Virus record (IMG/VR): IMGVR_UViG_3300021470_000009
Span: 1-21,288 of that record
DNA length: 21,288 bases
Source: a virus
Strand: one strand, 5' to 3'
Below the pieces are notes generated by a model, which was not told the DNA's origin, did not search any database, and saw nothing but the letters and a program-made list of their open reading frames with translations. The number at the start of each line of letters is the position of its first letter. The first letter of the stretch is position 1. Of the stretch, positions 4,827 to 15,016 are shown in pieces. Position numbers and translations under genes: made by a program.

Positions 4827-6437
4827 ATGGGGGAAGGTGCAAGCACAAATGAAAGTCGCCACTCAGCCATGCCCGTAACCAACGGCCAGTGGCACCCCGC
4901 CACCTCACCCAAGCAGGACGAGCTGCGCTGGCTCTGCCACCGGGACAACCCGGACAAGCCGCGCTTCGTGTGCGTCTCCGGCCCGCGCAAGTCCTCCAAG
5001 ACCTTCGGCTGTCTGAACACCGTCGTCGAGCACCTCTGGGAGACGGACAAGGCCATGTTTGGCATCATCGCTCCCACTGTCACCTCCGCCGTGGATGGCG
5101 GGTGCTGGCAGCTCATCACAGAGACAATCATCCCGCAGTGGATCGAAGGCGACTTCGGCTTCGAGTGGATTGACAAGCCCTACCAGCACGGCGTCTCCAA
5201 GAAGATGAAGTGCAGCGTCACCAACAAGCACGGCACCAAGTCAGTGCTCCAGCTTGAGACGTTCCGGGACGGAGCCACGGAGAAGGAGATCAGCGCCCGC
5301 TTCAAGAACAAGATCTTCACCGGCCTCTACTGGTCCGAGGTGGGTACCTGGGTCCACACGCAAACCCCCTTCGACATCATCACCGACTGCTTCCGGGCAC
5401 CGCACCTGAAGAGCCGGGACCATCTGATGATGCTGGACACCAACCCGGAGCCGCCCGGCGAGGACCACTGGATTTACCAGCTCTTCTACAAGTTCCGCAG
5501 CGCCGACCGCCTGCTGCTGGAGAAGATGGCCGCCGAGAAGGGGCTCAATCTGGAGCTGCTGCTGGAGCGCCAACGCAACCTCGGGCTCATGGAGTTCTTC
5601 GTCCCGGACAATCCGTTCCTTGAGGAGGCGGACCTGAACGAGCTGAAGATCAAGTACCACCACAACCAGGACCTGTGGGACCGCTACTTCCTGGGCAAGT
5701 GGACCAACGCCGCCGGGGACGGCATCTTCTCCGACGTGTTCCGCCCGGCTACCCACATTGCGGGTGAACTGGAGACGCCCATCAATCCGCAGCCCCGTAT
5801 CCTGCTCCCCCACCCGGACACCTACGAGCTGTACACCGGCAGCGATCCTGGCGTCACCAACTACGCCAGCGTGATCGTCGAGCAGTTGTTCCTGCCAGAT
5901 GCCACCGGCCGGGAGGTGCCCCACTTCAACATCCTCGACGAGCTGGTGTACATCGGCGAGGACATCAGCATCGGGGAGTTCACCATCGAACTCGTGGCCA
6001 AGCTGGAATACTGGGAGCATCAGCTCGGCCGGAAGGTCCGCTGGCAGCACTACGCCGACCGCAGCGTCTTCGACATGCGCGAATCCATCAGCGACCGCCG
6101 CCAGCACGTCGAGGTGTACAACGCCTCCAAAGGCAAGATCCGGCTCATTGCCGTGGAGAAGGGCGATGGCAGCGTGCGCCAGCGCATCGACATCCTCAAG
6201 AAGCTCCTGTTTCAGGACCGCATTGTCATCAGCAAGAGCAAGTGCCCCCACACCATCGAGGCGATCCAGTCCCTGAAGAAGACCAAGAACCGGCCCATCG
6301 ACAAGACCTCCAAGTTCAAGCACGCCTTCGACGCCCTCACCTACGTGCTGTCCACGCTCTGCTACGAGGAGCTTTACCGGGAGACGCGGAGCCTGGTGGA
6401 GAAGCCGAAGTCGGAGTATCTTCAGATACAGTTATAG
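4827..6437 (+). CDS. terL: Terminase large subunit (ATPase-nuclease)
   Basis: The motor that packages phage DNA through the portal and cuts the concatemer. An N-terminal ATPase carries a variant Walker A at residues 51-59 (SGPRKSSKT, not the usual GxxxxGK[ST]) and a Walker B region FTGLYWSEVG (164-173) with the catalytic acid at E171. The LDTNPEP segment near 203-209 could be the coupling motif. The C-terminal RNase H-like nuclease shows three acidic motifs: YTGSDPG (D340), YADRS (D411) and HAFDALTY (D502). Length (536 aa) is normal. A second ATG at 4869 gives MPVTNGQWHP and may be the real start; the first ATG has AGG only 1 nt upstream. A 9-codon mini-ORF (4849-4878) overlaps this region. 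The gene lies opposite in strand to portal and scaffold. No small terminase subunit is visible. Confidence 0.92.
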   Translation: MGEGASTNESRHSAMPVTNGQWHPATSPKQDELRWLCHRDNPDKPRFVCVSGPRKSSKTFGCLNTVVEHLWETDKAMFGIIAPTVTSAVDGGCWQLITETIIPQWIEGDFGFEWIDKPYQHGVSKKMKCSVTNKHGTKSVLQLETFRDGATEKEISARFKNKIFTGLYWSEVGTWVHTQTPFDIITDCFRAPHLKSRDHLMMLDTNPEPPGEDHWIYQLFYKFRSADRLLLEKMAAEKGLNLELLLERQRNLGLMEFFVPDNPFLEEADLNELKIKYHHNQDLWDRYFLGKWTNAAGDGIFSDVFRPATHIAGELETPINPQPRILLPHPDTYELYTGSDPGVTNYASVIVEQLFLPDATGREVPHFNILDELVYIGEDISIGEFTIELVAKLEYWEHQLGRKVRWQHYADRSVFDMRESISDRRQHVEVYNASKGKIRLIAVEKGDGSVRQRIDILKKLLFQDRIVISKSKCPHTIEAIQSLKKTKNRPIDKTSKFKHAFDALTYVLSTLCYEELYRETRSLVEKPKSEYLQIQL

Positions 6438-6441
6438 AAGA

Positions 6442-6905
6442 CGTTTCTGAACACACAGAAATCGTTCAGGAGATGACTTTTCCCACTTGCACTCTGCCAA
6501 ACCTGTGGCAGATTCCCCCTGTCAGCCACGGGTGAAACCGTGGCAAATCAGCCAGAAGTGACACCTGGTACACCCGGTTCATCGCCGTTCGGATAGCCAA
6601 GCCTTTACAGGGCATGAACATTAACGGGGCGCTACTGAAGGACAGACGCAAGCGCAGCGGTGGTGTGGCATGCCTCAAGAGCCGCAGTCTGGCACCCAAG
6701 TTCGGGTGTGATAGTAAGAGGCCAGTGTACGGTGAAACTTGCCAGTACACGCCCTGAAGACGCTCAGCGATTCTCGACTCGATCAGAGAACGGAAGCATC
6801 AGTCAGAAGGGCAGACACCACCAACAAGTAGGATTGGTGTGTCTGCCCATCAACAACTCGCTCAAACTCACCCGATCAGGAGAGCCGAAGAAGAAGAACC
6901 CGAAA
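6442..6905 (+). ncRNA. Candidate large structured noncoding RNA after terL
   Basis: The 569 bp between terL and the next ORF carries no convincing gene but many hairpins on the plus strand. They are TTTCTG/CAGAAA (6444-6461); TCTGCCA/TGGCAGA (6493-6512); GCCACGG-GTGAAA-CCGTGGC (6525-6544); CACCC/GGGTG (6693-6708); GTGTACGG/CC-A-GTACAC closed by GGC/GCC (6720-6753); TTCTC/GAGAA (6771-6790); and a very strong 9+6-bp hairpin with one bulged C (6809-6848). GGTGAAAC occurs in the loop region of two of them, 200 nt apart. No U-tract follows, so these are not simple terminators. Size and phage setting resemble the large phage RNAs GOLLD and ROOL, but I cannot match a family consensus. The boundaries are approximate. 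The rest of the gap, 6906-7006, holds only a perfect palindrome AGGTACGTACCT (6931-6942). Confidence 0.55.
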
Positions 6906-7006
6906 GGAAGAGGGGAAGAGGATCTTGTTAAGGTACGTACCTAGGGGGTATTGCTTGGGAGAAAGCTTGAAGAGAATCCTTCCATTGAGCACCATCCAAA
7001 CAAGCC

Positions 7007-7225
7007 ATGATCGGCAAGCTCGAACAGATCCTCAAGTACCACCGGGACAGGAACCTCCCCCTCGTGTGGCACCCCACTGCCCGGGAGAACATCCACTTCA
7101 AACGCTGCTACGGGTCATGGCAGTTCACGGAGAGCGAGTACGAATGGTGCATCAGCCAGAAAGGCGTGGAGATGTGGCCGGTCAAGGAGACACCTCAGAG
7201 CGTGAAAACTTACCGCATTACTTGA
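7007..7225 (+). CDS. Hypothetical protein (72 aa)
   Basis: A 72-aa ORF starting ATG, MIGKLEQILKYHRDRNLP, then LVWHPTARENIHFKRCYGSWQFTES and a C-terminal TYRIT. It is rich in aromatic residues (W, Y, F) with no cysteine pair and no recognisable domain. It follows the candidate structured RNA on the same strand and is followed within 80 bp by a terminator, so it appears to be the last gene of the rightward terL transcript. There is no clear Shine-Dalgarno before the ATG (ATCCAAACAAGCC). Real coding is likely from its composition; function unknown. Confidence 0.6.
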   Translation: MIGKLEQILKYHRDRNLPLVWHPTARENIHFKRCYGSWQFTESEYEWCISQKGVEMWPVKETPQSVKTYRIT

Positions 7226-7299
7226 AAAAGAGCTTGCGGTACCGGAATAGGTAAAGTATGGTTTCCTTGTCGGTGGCCACATACACCGACATCCTCCAC

Positions 7300-7338
7300 G
7301 GCCAGCGGACCTTATCCCCCCGCTGGCCGCTTCTTTTC
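7300..7338 (+). terminator. Rho-independent terminator of the rightward terL unit
   Basis: GGCCAGCGG (7300-7308) pairs perfectly with CCGCTGGCC (7320-7328) around an 11-nt loop, followed by GCTTCTTTTC. The U-rich side is on the plus strand. The stop codon of the convergent zinc-ribbon gene lies within the loop. A smaller hairpin TCGGTG/CACCGA lies just upstream at 7270-7289. Confidence 0.7.
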
Positions 7339-7527
7339 AGCACACTGCTTCAAACACCGTACCCGGCCGTCTGAATCCATCCGCATGGCCATCAGCTCGA
7401 ACTCCTCATGGCAATCGGTGCATTCCACGAGCTGGCTGGCCGCTGGCTGATAGATTCGAGGAGGAAGGGTGTCGGGAGAGGGTGGAGCGGTCAGGATTGA
7501 TCCTGGGGCATTTTGGGATGGGTCCAT
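7312..7527 (-). CDS. Small zinc-ribbon-like protein (71 aa)
   Basis: 71 aa. The first 30 residues are Pro/Ser/Ala rich and probably flexible. A compact C-terminal module then has CTDCHEEFEL and CLKQC, two Cys pairs about 20 residues apart that could hold one zinc ion. Such minimal ribbons are frequent in phages and usually unassigned. The start is ATG at 7527; there is no good Shine-Dalgarno. Directly upstream (7542-7576) is a perfect inverted repeat that may be an operator or leader hairpin for this gene. The stop lies in the loop of the convergent terminator. Confidence 0.55.
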   Translation of the reverse strand: MDPSQNAPGSILTAPPSPDTLPPRIYQPAASQLVECTDCHEEFELMAMRMDSDGRVRCLKQCAEKKRPAGG

Positions 7528-7541
7528 GCTTTTGAGGGTGG

Positions 7542-7576
7542 AGGTGTCAACAATGGCTTGTCAAATGTTGACACCT
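7542..7576. repeat. Perfect 10-bp inverted repeat upstream of the zinc-ribbon gene
   Basis: AGGTGTCAAC (7542-7551) and GTTGACACCT (7567-7576) are exact inverted copies separated by 15 nt. On the minus strand a further TTTGACA lies between the arms. The repeat sits 14 nt upstream of the start at 7527, where an operator or a leader stem would be expected. No convincing -10 element goes with the TTGACA sequences. Confidence 0.5.
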
Positions 7577-7672
7577 GATGACTTTGTGGCTCAAAGCACT
7601 CTCCAGTTCAAAGCTCCTGGAGATGCTGCCCGAGGTGGCGCGTCGAGGTGGATCTGTGAGGAGATCACCCAG

Positions 7673-7861
7673 TCACGACTTCCCCTTGGGTGTCACGACG
7701 AACTCACCTCGGGCGATGCGCCGCAGGAAGGTGCTCAGGGAGACGGTGCCCTTGTTGGGGCCGGTGCGGGAGTACGCGCCGAGGTGACGGCAGAGGCGCT
7801 TGATTTCGCTCTGGTCATCTTCGGAGAGCTTGATGCGCTGGCGCTTCTGGTGGGCTTGCAT
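7673..7861 (-). CDS. Small basic protein (62 aa) overlapped by the HNH gene
   Basis: 62 aa, strongly basic: MQAHQKRQRIKLSEDDQSEI, then KRLCRHLGAYSRTGPNKGTVSL and a C-terminal GEFVVTPKGKS. The layout (charged helix, Arg-rich helix, short strand) would suit a small DNA-binding or accessory phage protein, but no family is recognised. The leader AAAACACCC before its ATG resembles that of several other genes in this window. The tail of the homing endonuclease runs through it in another frame for 127 nt. This reading looks like the resident gene, while the overlapping HNH tail is low-complexity Ser/Ala/Pro/Arg. A hairpin CTCCAG/CTGGAG lies downstream at 7601-7622. Confidence 0.6.
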   Translation of the reverse strand: MQAHQKRQRIKLSEDDQSEIKRLCRHLGAYSRTGPNKGTVSLSTFLRRIARGEFVVTPKGKS

Positions 7862-8472
7862 GGGTGTTTTTTCAATGGGCTAACATGATCCCACTTCCAT
7901 CTTCCAAGACCAAACGTTACCATTTTGCGTCCGAGGATTGATCGGGAGATGCCAAACTTCAAGGCAATGTCTTTGAGGAGCATTCCAGATCGCCTCATCT
8001 CAACGGCCTCCTGAAGCTGCTGGTACGAGAGCTTTCTGAATGGAGACTTTCGCTTGCCAGTCGTCTTGGCCATGTTTTCAGCGTGCGTCACCCACTCAAG
8101 ATTTCCAACGACATTGTTCAGTGAGTTTCCGTCGATGTGGTTCACCTCGGGATTTCCTTCTGGGTTCGGAATGAAGAGCTTTGCGACGAGTCTGTGAACC
8201 TTGGTGAATGGGTGATTCGGAGATGACTTTCCTGATGGATAAATCCTGACAGCTTTATACCTCTTTCCTTTGCGACCGATGAGTGATGGGATGATCTCGA
8301 AAACGACTCCACATCTTGCCTCGACTGGAATCGTTGCCCTGTTGAAACGCCTGTCGCGAACAACCCTTCCAGATTCGGACACGAAGTAATCCACGTCAGG
8401 AATCTTCATCCATCTTTCCCATGGTTCAGGCTTGATTCCGTGTTCCCGAAGAATGTCTTCAATCATTTCCAT
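7735..8472 (-). CDS. HNH homing endonuclease with NUMOD4 domain
   Basis: A free-standing homing endonuclease that nicks or cuts DNA to spread its own gene. Residues 18-41 (PWERWMKIPDVDYFVSESGR) match the NUMOD4 DNA-binding module. Residues 91-134 form the HNH core: KVHRLVAKLFIPNPEGNPEV, NHIDGNSLNN and NLEWVTHAEN, with His93, Asn111-His112 and Asn120 in the expected places. Residues about 150-186 form a helix-turn-helix with DIALKFGISRSILGRKM that would recognise the target. After about residue 205 the sequence is an out-of-frame reading of the neighbouring 62-aa gene, so the natural C-terminus was probably extended when the element landed here. Its base composition is visibly more A/T rich than its neighbours, as expected for a recent arrival. 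Confidence 0.9.
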   Translation of the reverse strand: MEMIEDILREHGIKPEPWERWMKIPDVDYFVSESGRVVRDRRFNRATIPVEARCGVVFEIIPSLIGRKGKRYKAVRIYPSGKSSPNHPFTKVHRLVAKLFIPNPEGNPEVNHIDGNSLNNVVGNLEWVTHAENMAKTTGKRKSPFRKLSYQQLQEAVEMRRSGMLLKDIALKFGISRSILGRKMVTFGLGRWKWDHVSPLKKHPCKPTRSASASSSPKMTRAKSSASAVTSARTPAPAPTRAPSP

Positions 8473-9480: not shown

Positions 9481-9711
9481 GTGAACTATTCAGATTACAC
9501 CGTCGGAATTAGCAATGAACCGAGTTATTATGGTAGATCCTGTTCCGCGTTCGACGCGGAACGTATTGCGGAAAATCTCGCGGCAATGATTCACGCGCAG
9601 TTTCCCGGAATTGATACCCGATCGCACCATGGAAAGACAAATGGTCCGGATGAAACTGTAATCGGGGAAATCAATGAGTGGATTGAAAACAACTGGATGG
9701 CGGCGCTCTGA
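9481..9711 (+). CDS. Hypothetical accessory protein (76 aa)
   Basis: 76 aa with a GTG start placed 7 nt after AAAGG in a conserved leader element. The sequence is acidic: MNYSDYTVGISNEPSYYGRS, then FDAERIAENLAAMIHAQFPG and a C-terminal GEINEWIENNWMAAL. A short beta start followed by a helix (AERIAENLAAMI) is seen, with no catalytic motif. This is the first gene of the rightward accessory cluster and ends in the conserved TGATTCC that opens the intergenic module. The overall style (small, acidic, aromatic) resembles that of phage and plasmid accessory proteins; function unknown. Confidence 0.7.
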   Translation: MNYSDYTVGISNEPSYYGRSCSAFDAERIAENLAAMIHAQFPGIDTRSHHGKTNGPDETVIGEINEWIENNWMAAL

Positions 9712-9805
9712 TTCCGCTCCTCCTCCCTGGCCGCGCGCCGGGGCGGATGGGCGCAACCAGCGCCGCTCGGCAATCACGCCGGCGAAATTGAAAGGTAAAC
9801 ACAGT
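9709..9805 (+). repeat. Intergenic RNA module, copy 2 (three tandem hairpins)
   Basis: Begins with the TGA stop of the preceding gene in TGATTCCGC. Three small hairpins follow: CCCTGGC/GCCGGGG (9725-9743), GGCGC-AACCA-GCGCC (9750-9764) and CGGC-AATCAC-GCCG (9768-9781). Then come GCGAAATTGAAAGG and a 10-nt gap to ATG. The first 35 nt are identical to the module at 12908. Confidence 0.65.
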
Positions 9806-10155: not shown

Positions 10156-10743
10156 ATGAAAACTCTCTCCCCCTCCCTCATTACCGAATCTAAGCGCCTC
10201 GTCTCCGCCAAATCCCGCTTCGGCCATGCAATCCAAGTCTATGACGACGGGTTTGGCCCGCTGTGGATACACCGCGACAGCATGGGCATTTCCGGCATTG
10301 TCCGGGCGCAGACTTGGGAAGACGCCTATGGTATTTGTGAAGATGAATTCTTCTCTGAAGAATCAATGACCATTGAAGAAATCGCCAAAGAGTATGGGTT
10401 CAAGCGTGAACACGTGAAGATTGTCCGCGATCCGCTCGCCCAGGCTGGAAAACACACGGCCGCCGGTGAAAGGATTTGCCGCGATACTGACTACATTAAT
10501 GGCCGTCTCCCTGACGGGCTTTTTATCCGCTGGCTCACCATTGAAACACCCGACGCTGACGCATGGGCAGACAATGAACTCTTTCAAGAGTCATGCGGAT
10601 TCCGCCCTTCCGGCCCAAATTCAAGGGACACGCTTAATCATGGCATTCACGCCAGGGACTTGAGCGGTGACTATCTCGACAAGCTCACTCCAGCCCTTCT
10701 CTCTGAACTGGAAATCACGCTGGAAATTGTTGAAGAGGATTGA
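10156..10743 (+). CDS. Hypothetical accessory protein (195 aa)
   Basis: 195 aa, start ATG 10156 after an A/C-rich leader (CACTTCACCCCCTA) with no Shine-Dalgarno. The N-terminal domain contains FGHAIQVYDDGFGPLWIHRD and GISGIVRAQTWEDAYGICED, a beta-rich stretch with an acidic helix. A middle segment has SMTIEEIAKEYGFKREHVKI, resembling a short helix-turn-helix. The C-terminal half includes LTIETPDADAWADNELFQES and ends LLSELEITLEIVEED. The FGHAIQVYDDGFGPLW start is, from memory, seen in conserved phage/plasmid proteins, but I cannot name the family. Its TGA is the first codon of the next intergenic module. Confidence 0.75.
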   Translation: MKTLSPSLITESKRLVSAKSRFGHAIQVYDDGFGPLWIHRDSMGISGIVRAQTWEDAYGICEDEFFSEESMTIEEIAKEYGFKREHVKIVRDPLAQAGKHTAAGERICRDTDYINGRLPDGLFIRWLTIETPDADAWADNELFQESCGFRPSGPNSRDTLNHGIHARDLSGDYLDKLTPALLSELEITLEIVEED

Positions 10744-10839
10744 TTCCGCGCTCCCCTCCCGGACCACCCTCCGGGAGCGGACCGCGCAACCAATGCGCCC
10801 GTGCGGGAATTACCCCGCCGAGAATCGAAAGGTCAAACG
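10741..10839 (+). repeat. Intergenic RNA module, copy 3 (three tandem hairpins)
   Basis: Starts with the TGA stop of the preceding gene in TGATTCCGCG. Hairpins: TCCCGGA/TCCGGGA (10757-10776) inside CCGC/GCGG (10746-10780); GCGC-AACCAAT-GCGC (10784-10798); and GCGGG-AATTAC-CCCGC (10803-10818). Then come GAGAATCGAAAGG and a 7-nt gap to ATG. The third stem differs from the other copies by paired changes while the loop stays AATTAC. Confidence 0.65.
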
Positions 10840-12754: not shown

Positions 12755-12910
12755 ATGCGCCGCCTTCTCATAATCCTCGCTTGCGTCCCCTGGTCCGCCG
12801 TTGTCTTTGCCTCCCTGCAATGGGGGTGGATGGCAATGTTGATCCAATCCTCCGCCTTAACCGCGTTCTGTGTGCTGATGATGCGCCGGAAGGATGCCCC
12901 GCCGTTCTGA
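12755..12910 (+). CDS. Small membrane protein (51 aa)
   Basis: ATG 12755 to TGA 12908-12910, 6 nt after the preceding stop. MRRLLIILACVPWSAVVFAS is followed by LQWGWMAMLIQSSALTAFCV and a basic tail (LMMRRKDAPPF). Two hydrophobic segments (about residues 4-22 and 27-42) with positive residues at both ends predict a two-pass inner-membrane protein. The first segment could also be read as a signal peptide. The stop codon is the first codon of the conserved intergenic module. Small membrane proteins of this kind in phages can act in lysis, superinfection exclusion or host membrane modification; none can be chosen here. Confidence 0.65.
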   Translation: MRRLLIILACVPWSAVVFASLQWGWMAMLIQSSALTAFCVLMMRRKDAPPF

Positions 12911-12992
12911 TTCCGCTCCTCCTCCCTGGCCGCGCGCCGGGGAGAATGGGCGCAACCAAGCGCACCAAGCAAAACACCAAAAGGAAAACACC
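12908..12992 (+). repeat. Intergenic RNA module, copy 4
   Basis: Begins with the stop codon of the membrane-protein gene in TGATTCCGC. The first 35 nt are identical to the module at 9709. Hairpins: CTCCCTGGC/GCCGGGGAG (12922-12944, one G-U) and GCGC-AACCAA-GCGC (12950-12963). The third AATYAC hairpin is absent, but AAAAGG with an 8-nt gap still precedes ATG 12993. Confidence 0.65.
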
Positions 12993-14604: not shown

Positions 14605-14954
14605 AACTGCAAACCGAACTGGATGCCCTGGCCGCAATCTTTGAATCCGTGGCCATCGTCGAGCTTACCCACTGCCCAGCGCAGGATGATCGGCCAGAAA
14701 CCATCGCCCTCGACTGCCTCCAAGTGCGCGACACCGCCCCGCCCGGCACCGGCACACAGATTCTGACAGCCCTCTTCGCCGTGGCTGACCGCGCCGGGCT
14801 GGCGGTGTGGTGCTATGCGCTGCCCTACCATCGCCGGGGCATCAAAGCGCCAATGAATCAGGACCAGCTTGTGAAGTGGTATGAGGCTAGAGGCTTTCGC
14901 CAGTGGCATGGGATGTTGAAGGCGTGCCTGATCCGTGAACCAAAAATGCAGTGA
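14601..14954 (+). CDS. GNAT-like N-acetyltransferase (117 aa)
   Basis: 117 aa; GTG start overlapping the upstream stop (GTGA). The fold of GCN5-type acetyltransferases is suggested by a central strand and acetyl-CoA loop around IALDCLQVRDTAPPGTGTQI (residues 36-53, pyrophosphate-binding PPGTGTQIL), the helix LTALFAVADRAGLAVWCYAL, and a C-terminal DQLVKWYEARGFRQ (residues 88-101) typical of motif B, followed by a final strand. Such enzymes move an acetyl group from acetyl-CoA to an amine of a small molecule or protein. In a phage accessory cluster it could modify a host protein or tRNA, but no substrate can be inferred. The TGA is the first codon of the last intergenic module. Confidence 0.75.
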   Translation: MKLQTELDALAAIFESVAIVELTHCPAQDDRPETIALDCLQVRDTAPPGTGTQILTALFAVADRAGLAVWCYALPYHRRGIKAPMNQDQLVKWYEARGFRQWHGMLKACLIREPKMQ

Positions 14955-15016
14955 TTCCGCGCTCCCTCTCCGGCACGACCGGAGGGGGACCGCGCAACCA
15001 AGCGCACAACACCATT
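14952..15016 (+). repeat. Intergenic RNA module, copy 5 (short form)
   Basis: Starts at the TGA of the GNAT-like gene in TGATTCCGCG. Hairpins: CCCTCTCCGG/CCGGAGGGGG (14964-14988, loop CACGA, one G-U) and GCGC-AACCAA-GCGC (14992-15005). The AATYAC hairpin and AAAGG are absent; the next gene starts after CACAACACCATT. Confidence 0.6.

Follow-up and report, generated by a model that had tools for sequence, protein, structure and literature searches.

A solid candidate for a new class of structured non-coding RNA, encoded close to terL in a lineage of phages

Introduction

Only a small number of large phage RNAs with elaborate folds have been described, and two of them, GOLLD and ROOL, are still without an established function. 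The pRNA of phage phi29, a molecule of about 170 nt, has two mutually complementary loops and serves packaging. OLE is a bacterial rather than a phage RNA and works with protein partners. It is large, contains kissing loops and forms a dimer (PMC12286853). GOLLD is often longer than 800 nt, often lies near tRNAs and assembles into a closed cage of 14 copies (PMC12286853). Its 5' part is variable and its 3' part more constant (PMC12286853), as in the RNA described here. ROOL is a large RNA of phages and prophages that has several pseudoknots, and its conserved loop contact was first found by covariation; its env-120 representative is 659 nt long, the class is often found near tRNA islands, and the RNA forms a multimeric cage (PMC12286853).

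Here we analyse an IMG/VR virus record of 21,288 bp, the whole stretch of which we call the window. An original prediction, made from the sequence of the window, had proposed a large structured RNA between terL and a 72-aa gene, belonging either to GOLLD or ROOL or to a new class.

Results

A non-coding stretch after terL

The candidate RNA and its neighbours, all on the plus strand, are the following (the homologue count includes the near-identical contig L002):

4827-6437, plus strand: terL, the upstream neighbour, outside the RNA (Pfam Terminase_3, 3.7e-05; PHROG terminase large subunit, 1.4e-15)
6438-6925, plus strand: whole candidate RNA (non-coding, fold z -2.8, homologues in seven further IMG/VR contigs)
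6876-6925, plus strand: unstructured polypurine tract lying between the RNA body and the next ORF, read directly in the sequence
7007-7225, plus strand: 72-aa ORF, the downstream neighbour, outside the RNA (no Pfam or PHROG match)

The 5' end of the element is uncertain and its 3' end was set at the end of the polypurine tract, a comparable tract being present in the related contigs L007, L009, L016 and L020, and a short A-rich one in L022. The original prediction had placed the RNA at 6442-6905, in a stretch with no good ORF; the location was right, the element reaches somewhat beyond those limits, and positions 6438 to about 6925 are indeed non-coding. No conserved ORF was found between terL and the 72-aa ORF, which itself has no match in Pfam or PHROG. 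The prediction would have fallen had a conserved protein emerged after frameshift correction, and no reading frame across the RNA is common to the window, L009 and L020, the three distinct sequences of what we call type B below. We found no sigma-70 promoter match for the RNA, and no 3' terminator marking off a discrete transcript was seen.

The 543-nt region that was folded has a minimum free energy (MFE) of -187.6 kcal/mol, compared with -169.0 +/- 6.6 for dinucleotide shuffles (z -2.83, none of 100 as low). In 200-nt sliding windows z reached -2.8 at 6400-6599 and -3.3 at 6700-6899, and was about 0 across terL. The absolute fold energy is similar to that of GC-rich genes and lower only than composition predicts, and the claim that the structure is far stronger than that of coding DNA survives against shuffles (z -2.8) but not for absolute energy, which is not higher. 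Because the reverse strand of the same region folds too (z -3.4), the strand is not told by fold energy alone.

Two other features of the window were seen. A second strongly folding non-coding stretch follows the 72-aa ORF at 7226-7499 (z -4.9 and -3.5, plus strand); it includes a hairpin, GGCCAGCGG/CCGCTGGCC, that resembles a terminator and has a T-rich tail, and L002 differs there. An intergenic module of 50-60 nt, TGATTCCGC...CCGG...CGCAACCA, occurs in four copies (9701-9759, 10741-10793, 12900-12958 and 14952-15001) and has an internal GC-rich inverted repeat; two of the four begin at the stop codon that closes the ORF before them.

Homologues and covariation

Homologues were gathered via terL relatives in IMG/VR, whose terL products share with that of the window 99% (L002), 78% (L020), 76% (L003) or, in a further group, about 55% amino acid identity. 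The RNAs fall into two types, type B (the window, L002, L009 and L020) and type A (L006, L007, L016 and L022), and comprise six distinct sequences, three of them of type B, for which the register was partly aligned by hand. By blastn the window matches L009 at 63% over 281 nt (E 3e-10), L009 matches the minus strand of L020 at 65% over 329 nt (2e-19), and L007 matches L022 at 71% over 296 nt (2e-40). The window and L002 are identical over the 550 nt of 6423-6972 and about 10% divergent over 7200-7799; stretches of terL and portal are near-identical too, so that the identity of the RNA is supporting, not decisive.

The type A sequences, in an unsupervised MAFFT alignment, gave an RNAalifold energy z of -5.95, with none of 200 column shuffles as good. 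The type A alignment contains 13 double-compensatory pairs, against a shuffle mean of 4.6 (0 of 500 shuffles reach 13), and 94% of its cells are paired, compared with 31-40% when the structure is slid. When only type B was used for training, a covariance model (R1) located L006, L007 and L016 in their slot with E values of 0.003-0.005 in 348 kb; its next matches, L037 and L047, had entered the set through a pattern having the same motif. A second model (R2), trained on type B plus L006 and L007, detected the held-out L022 with 56 bits (E 8.6e-16), and its core, made of P4, the GCGG hairpin, P5, GATAGT and P6, is present in seven relatives at E<=9e-16. The combined core alignment of five sequences is model-fitted and hence leans towards structure; its doubly changed cells number 24 against 9.5 (0/500), and its covariation score is 0.63 against 0.22. 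Covariation among homologues, the check proposed with the original prediction, is therefore present in these shuffle-tested alignments.

A conserved predicted fold

The elements of the RNA in the window, with the evidence for each, are:

6444-6512, plus strand: window-specific 5' hairpins TTTCTG/CAGAAA (6444-6461) and TCTGCCA/TGGCAGA (6493-6512), from sequence only, without homologue
6525-6544, plus strand: window-specific hexaloop hairpin GCCACGG-GTGAAA-CCGTGGC, 7 bp, from sequence and in the MFE fold
6577-6619, plus strand: P3 (tentative), GTTCAT 6577-6582 with ATGAAC 6614-6619, from hand alignment
6629-6655, plus strand: P4, GCGC 6629-6632 with GCGC 6652-6655, from covariation
6657-6685, plus strand: GCGG/CCGC hairpin, which contains the family's best-conserved sequence (AGCGGTRRTGYG...AGAGCCGCA), from alignment
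6693-6708, plus strand: P5, CACCC 6693-6697 with GGGTG 6704-6708, loop AAGTTC, from covariation
6698-6740, plus strand: contact K, AAGTT 6698-6702 (P5 loop) with AACTT 6736-6740 (P6 loop), from complementarity
6710-6715, plus strand: conserved linker GATAGT, GAGAGT in type A, from alignment
6725-6750, plus strand: P6, GTGTAC 6725-6730 with GTACAC 6745-6750, from covariation
6809-6848, plus strand: P8, long 3' hairpin GGGCAGACACCACCAA/TTGGTGTGTCTGCCC, bipartite 9+6-bp stem with one bulged base, from covariation

The alignments show a conserved predicted fold consisting of P4, the GCGG/CCGC hairpin, P5, the GATAGT linker, P6 and P8, to which a contact between P5 and P6 is added. When the window, L009 and L020 were aligned by hand, the pairs found to be doubly compensated were 2/4 in P4, 3/5 in P5, 4/6 in P6 and 6/6 in upper P8. 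The counterparts of P4 are GCAC/GTGC in L009, GTGC/GCAC in L020 and GTCC/GGAC in type A; those of P5 are CGACC/GGTTG in L009 and GGGCA/TGCTT in L020, with G-U pairs that fit the plus strand; and those of P6 are GTAGGC/GCCTAC in L009 and TTGTGC/GCACGA in L020, with 5/10 pairs doubly compensated in type A. In P8 the lower part, GGCAGA/TCTGCC, is constant in type B, and the upper 6 bp vary in all three sequences with pairing kept; its type A counterpart is AGGCAACGCACGAC/GTCGTGCTTTGCC. P3 also pairs in L009 (GTGGC/GCCAC) and L020 (ACTGGA/TCCAGT) in the hand alignment, and is missing from the MFE fold of the window. The sequence of the GCGG/CCGC hairpin is invariant in type B, and in type A it is degenerate yet recognisable. 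We considered the palindrome in its loop (GCATGC, GGCC) as a kissing site of two copies and rejected it as too short for significance.

The two hairpins singled out in the original prediction, that with the GTGAAA hexaloop and that with the 9+6-bp stem, are both there. The hairpins at 6438-6576, about 140 nt, are specific to the window, with neither homologues nor covariation support. Read from the opposite strand, the G-U pairs of the helices would become C-A; this speaks for the plus strand, with the reservation that the helices were chosen because they pair.

A putative loop-loop contact between P5 and P6

Complementarity between the loops of P5 and P6 extends over 6 nt in the window, 6 nt in L009, 8 nt in L020 and 7 nt in L022, with shuffle p values of 0.011, 0.005, 0.0005 and 0.002, respectively. 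The counterparts of the window's pairing are AGCAGT/ACTGCT in L009, AAGTGATT/AATCACTT in L020 and AATAAGT/ACTTATT in L022. In L006 and L007 the loops are complementary over just 3 nt and contact K is absent, so that it is found in four of the six distinct sequences. Some of its bases also close P5, and K and the top of P5 thus compete in part. It had also been noticed that GGTGAAAC recurs 200 nt downstream: it does occur at 6531 and again at 6731, in the loop of another hairpin, but the repeat looks incidental, because the overlapping AACTT, just after GGTGA in the second hairpin, serves the loop-loop contact.

Distribution and genomic context

All copies of the RNA lie within about 2 kb of terL, and DNA-pattern scans that did not require terL found no copy beyond the contigs of this terL lineage. 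Apart from L002, the relatives of types A and B have a terminator-like hairpin, then the RNA and then an ORF, and the ORF 3' of the RNA differs among the window, L009, L007, L006, L022 and L020. L009 and L011 have the upstream terminator element and the downstream ORF in common, and L011 has no model match to the RNA. The L020 copy has the inverted orientation and lies about 1.6 kb from terL. L003, despite its related terL, has no RNA in the slot; in L008, L012 and L013 the terminator is followed directly by a gene, no such RNA follows terL, and R2 matches nothing in the records, which may be incomplete. A non-homologous spacer ("type C") with the same 5' hairpin fills the slot in two contigs (L004:3628-3790 and L011:4489-4650), and was rejected as a member of the family, having no extra folding (z 0.1 and -0.4) and no model match. 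As far as the contigs allow us to judge, they show an accessory distribution that is independent of the adjacent genes, and the element looks more like an accessory module specific to the lineage than like a leader that belongs to one given gene.

The terminator-like hairpin was located at L007:4153-4225, L009:4594-4668, L011:4406-4480, L012:1713-1800, L004:3544-3618, L022:7233-7305 and L021:8102-8170, and at about 5552-5440 on the minus strand of L020. Its apical loop can pair with the upstream strand, being complementary over 6-11 bp to a segment about 40-90 nt upstream, and the differing sequences all pair (GTGTAGCG/CGCTACAC, GTGTGACG/CGTCACAC, GTGTAACG/CGTTACAC, GTGAAAGC/GCTTTCAC and GTTTGACACCC/GGGTGTCAAAC). 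It is apparently a covarying pseudoknotted terminator, with or without the RNA 3' of it. As a separate matter, the terL match of L003:6001-7549 spans residues 22-536, yet no single open frame of more than 400 aa covers it; this broken frame is a frameshift or an assembly error.

Searches outside the family

The window gave nothing in Rfam at gathering thresholds and only chance-level, unrelated families at E<=10, and the homologues gave no relevant match; a weak resemblance to ctRNA_p42d in relatives sits on the terminator-like hairpin. The comparison with Rfam that had been proposed at the outset accordingly returned no GOLLD, ROOL or group I/II intron. In particular, the GOLLD model had no match at E<=10 in the region of the window and none in the homologues, and the ROOL and phi29 pRNA models matched neither. 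No tRNA was found in the 21-kb window by ARAGORN, tRNAs being frequent but not constant neighbours of GOLLD. The RNAs of the window, L009 and L007 had no blastn match in a phage database, terL and portal had no tblastn match among named phages, and a terL profile found no relative in GTDB genomes. R2 had no match across 299 genomes of one phylum, a result of little weight because this may not be the phylum of the host.

Several sets of candidates were discarded: L019 and L023-L031, from DNA-pattern scans, as coding or chance matches; L032-L051, none of which matches by blastn, including L047, the best R1 match among them, which lies inside a coding gene; and the matches of a GTDB pattern scan, whose pattern was too permissive and returned chance matches only.

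Discussion

We think it fairly probable that the window encodes a stand-alone structured non-coding RNA of phage origin, about 400-500 nt long, on the plus strand and of a class absent from Rfam. Comparative sequence evidence makes it a solid candidate for a new class of RNA, and between the two outcomes originally envisaged, a known large RNA or a new one, the lack of any Rfam match together with the covariation of the homologues supports the latter.

The RNA could instead be a cis-acting 5' UTR, riboswitch-like or simply a folded leader, that controls the translation or transcription of the next gene. We regard this as unlikely, and still as a serious reading because an ORF always follows: in all members the start codon of a same-strand ORF comes after the RNA body and its polypurine or A-rich tract, and in the type A and B relatives the terminator-like hairpin stands just 5', as for a fresh transcript start. 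Against it, the next gene is different in every member examined, one such gene exists without the RNA (L011 compared with L009), neither an alternative terminator nor a sequestered start site was seen, and more than 400 nt is large for a leader. A stand-alone, trans-acting RNA is favoured over the leader of one gene since the presence, position and orientation of the element vary independently of the neighbouring genes, and since different genes follow it.

Much less probable is a packaging RNA like that of phi29, in which neighbouring copies would be joined by loop pairing into a ring at the portal or terminase. That one RNA carries two complementary loops is a pRNA trait, and the restriction to contigs of this terL lineage, at most about 2 kb from terL, emerged even from scans that did not require terL; however, four contigs with a related terL (L003, L008, L012 and L013) have no RNA in the slot, so that packaging seems not to need it, its size and sequence are unlike those of pRNA, with no Rfam match, and TerL is a terminase-type motor, not one of the phi29 gp16 type.

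We give very little credence to a self-splicing intron or its remnant, or to the guide RNA of a nearby nuclease: the presence and absence of the element are mobile-like and about 0.8 kb away lies an HNH_3 gene (7735-8472) that weakly matches NUMOD4, but the element is intergenic between two intact genes and interrupts none, terL being complete, no group I/II intron or guide RNA of Rfam matches it, and the HNH protein has no RuvC or Cas9/IscB domain. That the locus is just a GC-rich spacer with chance hairpins, as a fold energy only about 3 sd under shuffles and the folding of both strands might hint, is scarcely credible given the covariation, the model-based detection of a held-out homologue, and the identity with L002 over 550 nt beside a stretch, 7200-7799, that diverges by about 10%.

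A stand-alone RNA could work as follows. In the window it would be co-transcribed with terL and the 72-aa gene, would persist as a stable RNA and would then act in trans during infection. It may be a compact scaffold in which the single-stranded stretches that stay constant, namely the AGCGGTRRTGYG...AGAGCCGCA loop and GATAGT, provide the binding sites for a partner, candidates for which are a phage or host factor or a second copy of the RNA, as in GOLLD and ROOL. A bolder version, in which the class acts as a homo-oligomer (a ring or cage) whose copies pair with one another through their P5 and P6 loops, and so joins GOLLD and ROOL as a third, independent case, seems to us a rather long shot.

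How does this RNA compare with those already described? Like OLE, it is a large RNA with a putative loop-loop contact, but it comes from a phage and has no Rfam match to OLE. With phi29 pRNA it has in common that it possesses putatively pairing, complementary loops, and it lies near a packaging gene, terL; it differs in having no Rfam match and in that part of its own terL lineage lacks it. It is like GOLLD a large ornate RNA encoded by a phage, with covarying helices and a putative loop contact, and differs in its length of about 400-500 nt, in the lack of tRNAs in the window and in having no Rfam match. As in ROOL, covariation points to a candidate loop contact in a large phage RNA; sequence and fold are unrelated at the sensitivity of Rfam. 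By this analysis, then, the RNA of the window resembles GOLLD and ROOL in kind and is not homologous to them at that sensitivity. Such RNAs are still to be discovered in uncultured phages, and this one, of comparable complexity, smaller, portable in its gene-independent location and with a defined candidate loop contact, may offer a more tractable object for the study of function than GOLLD and ROOL.
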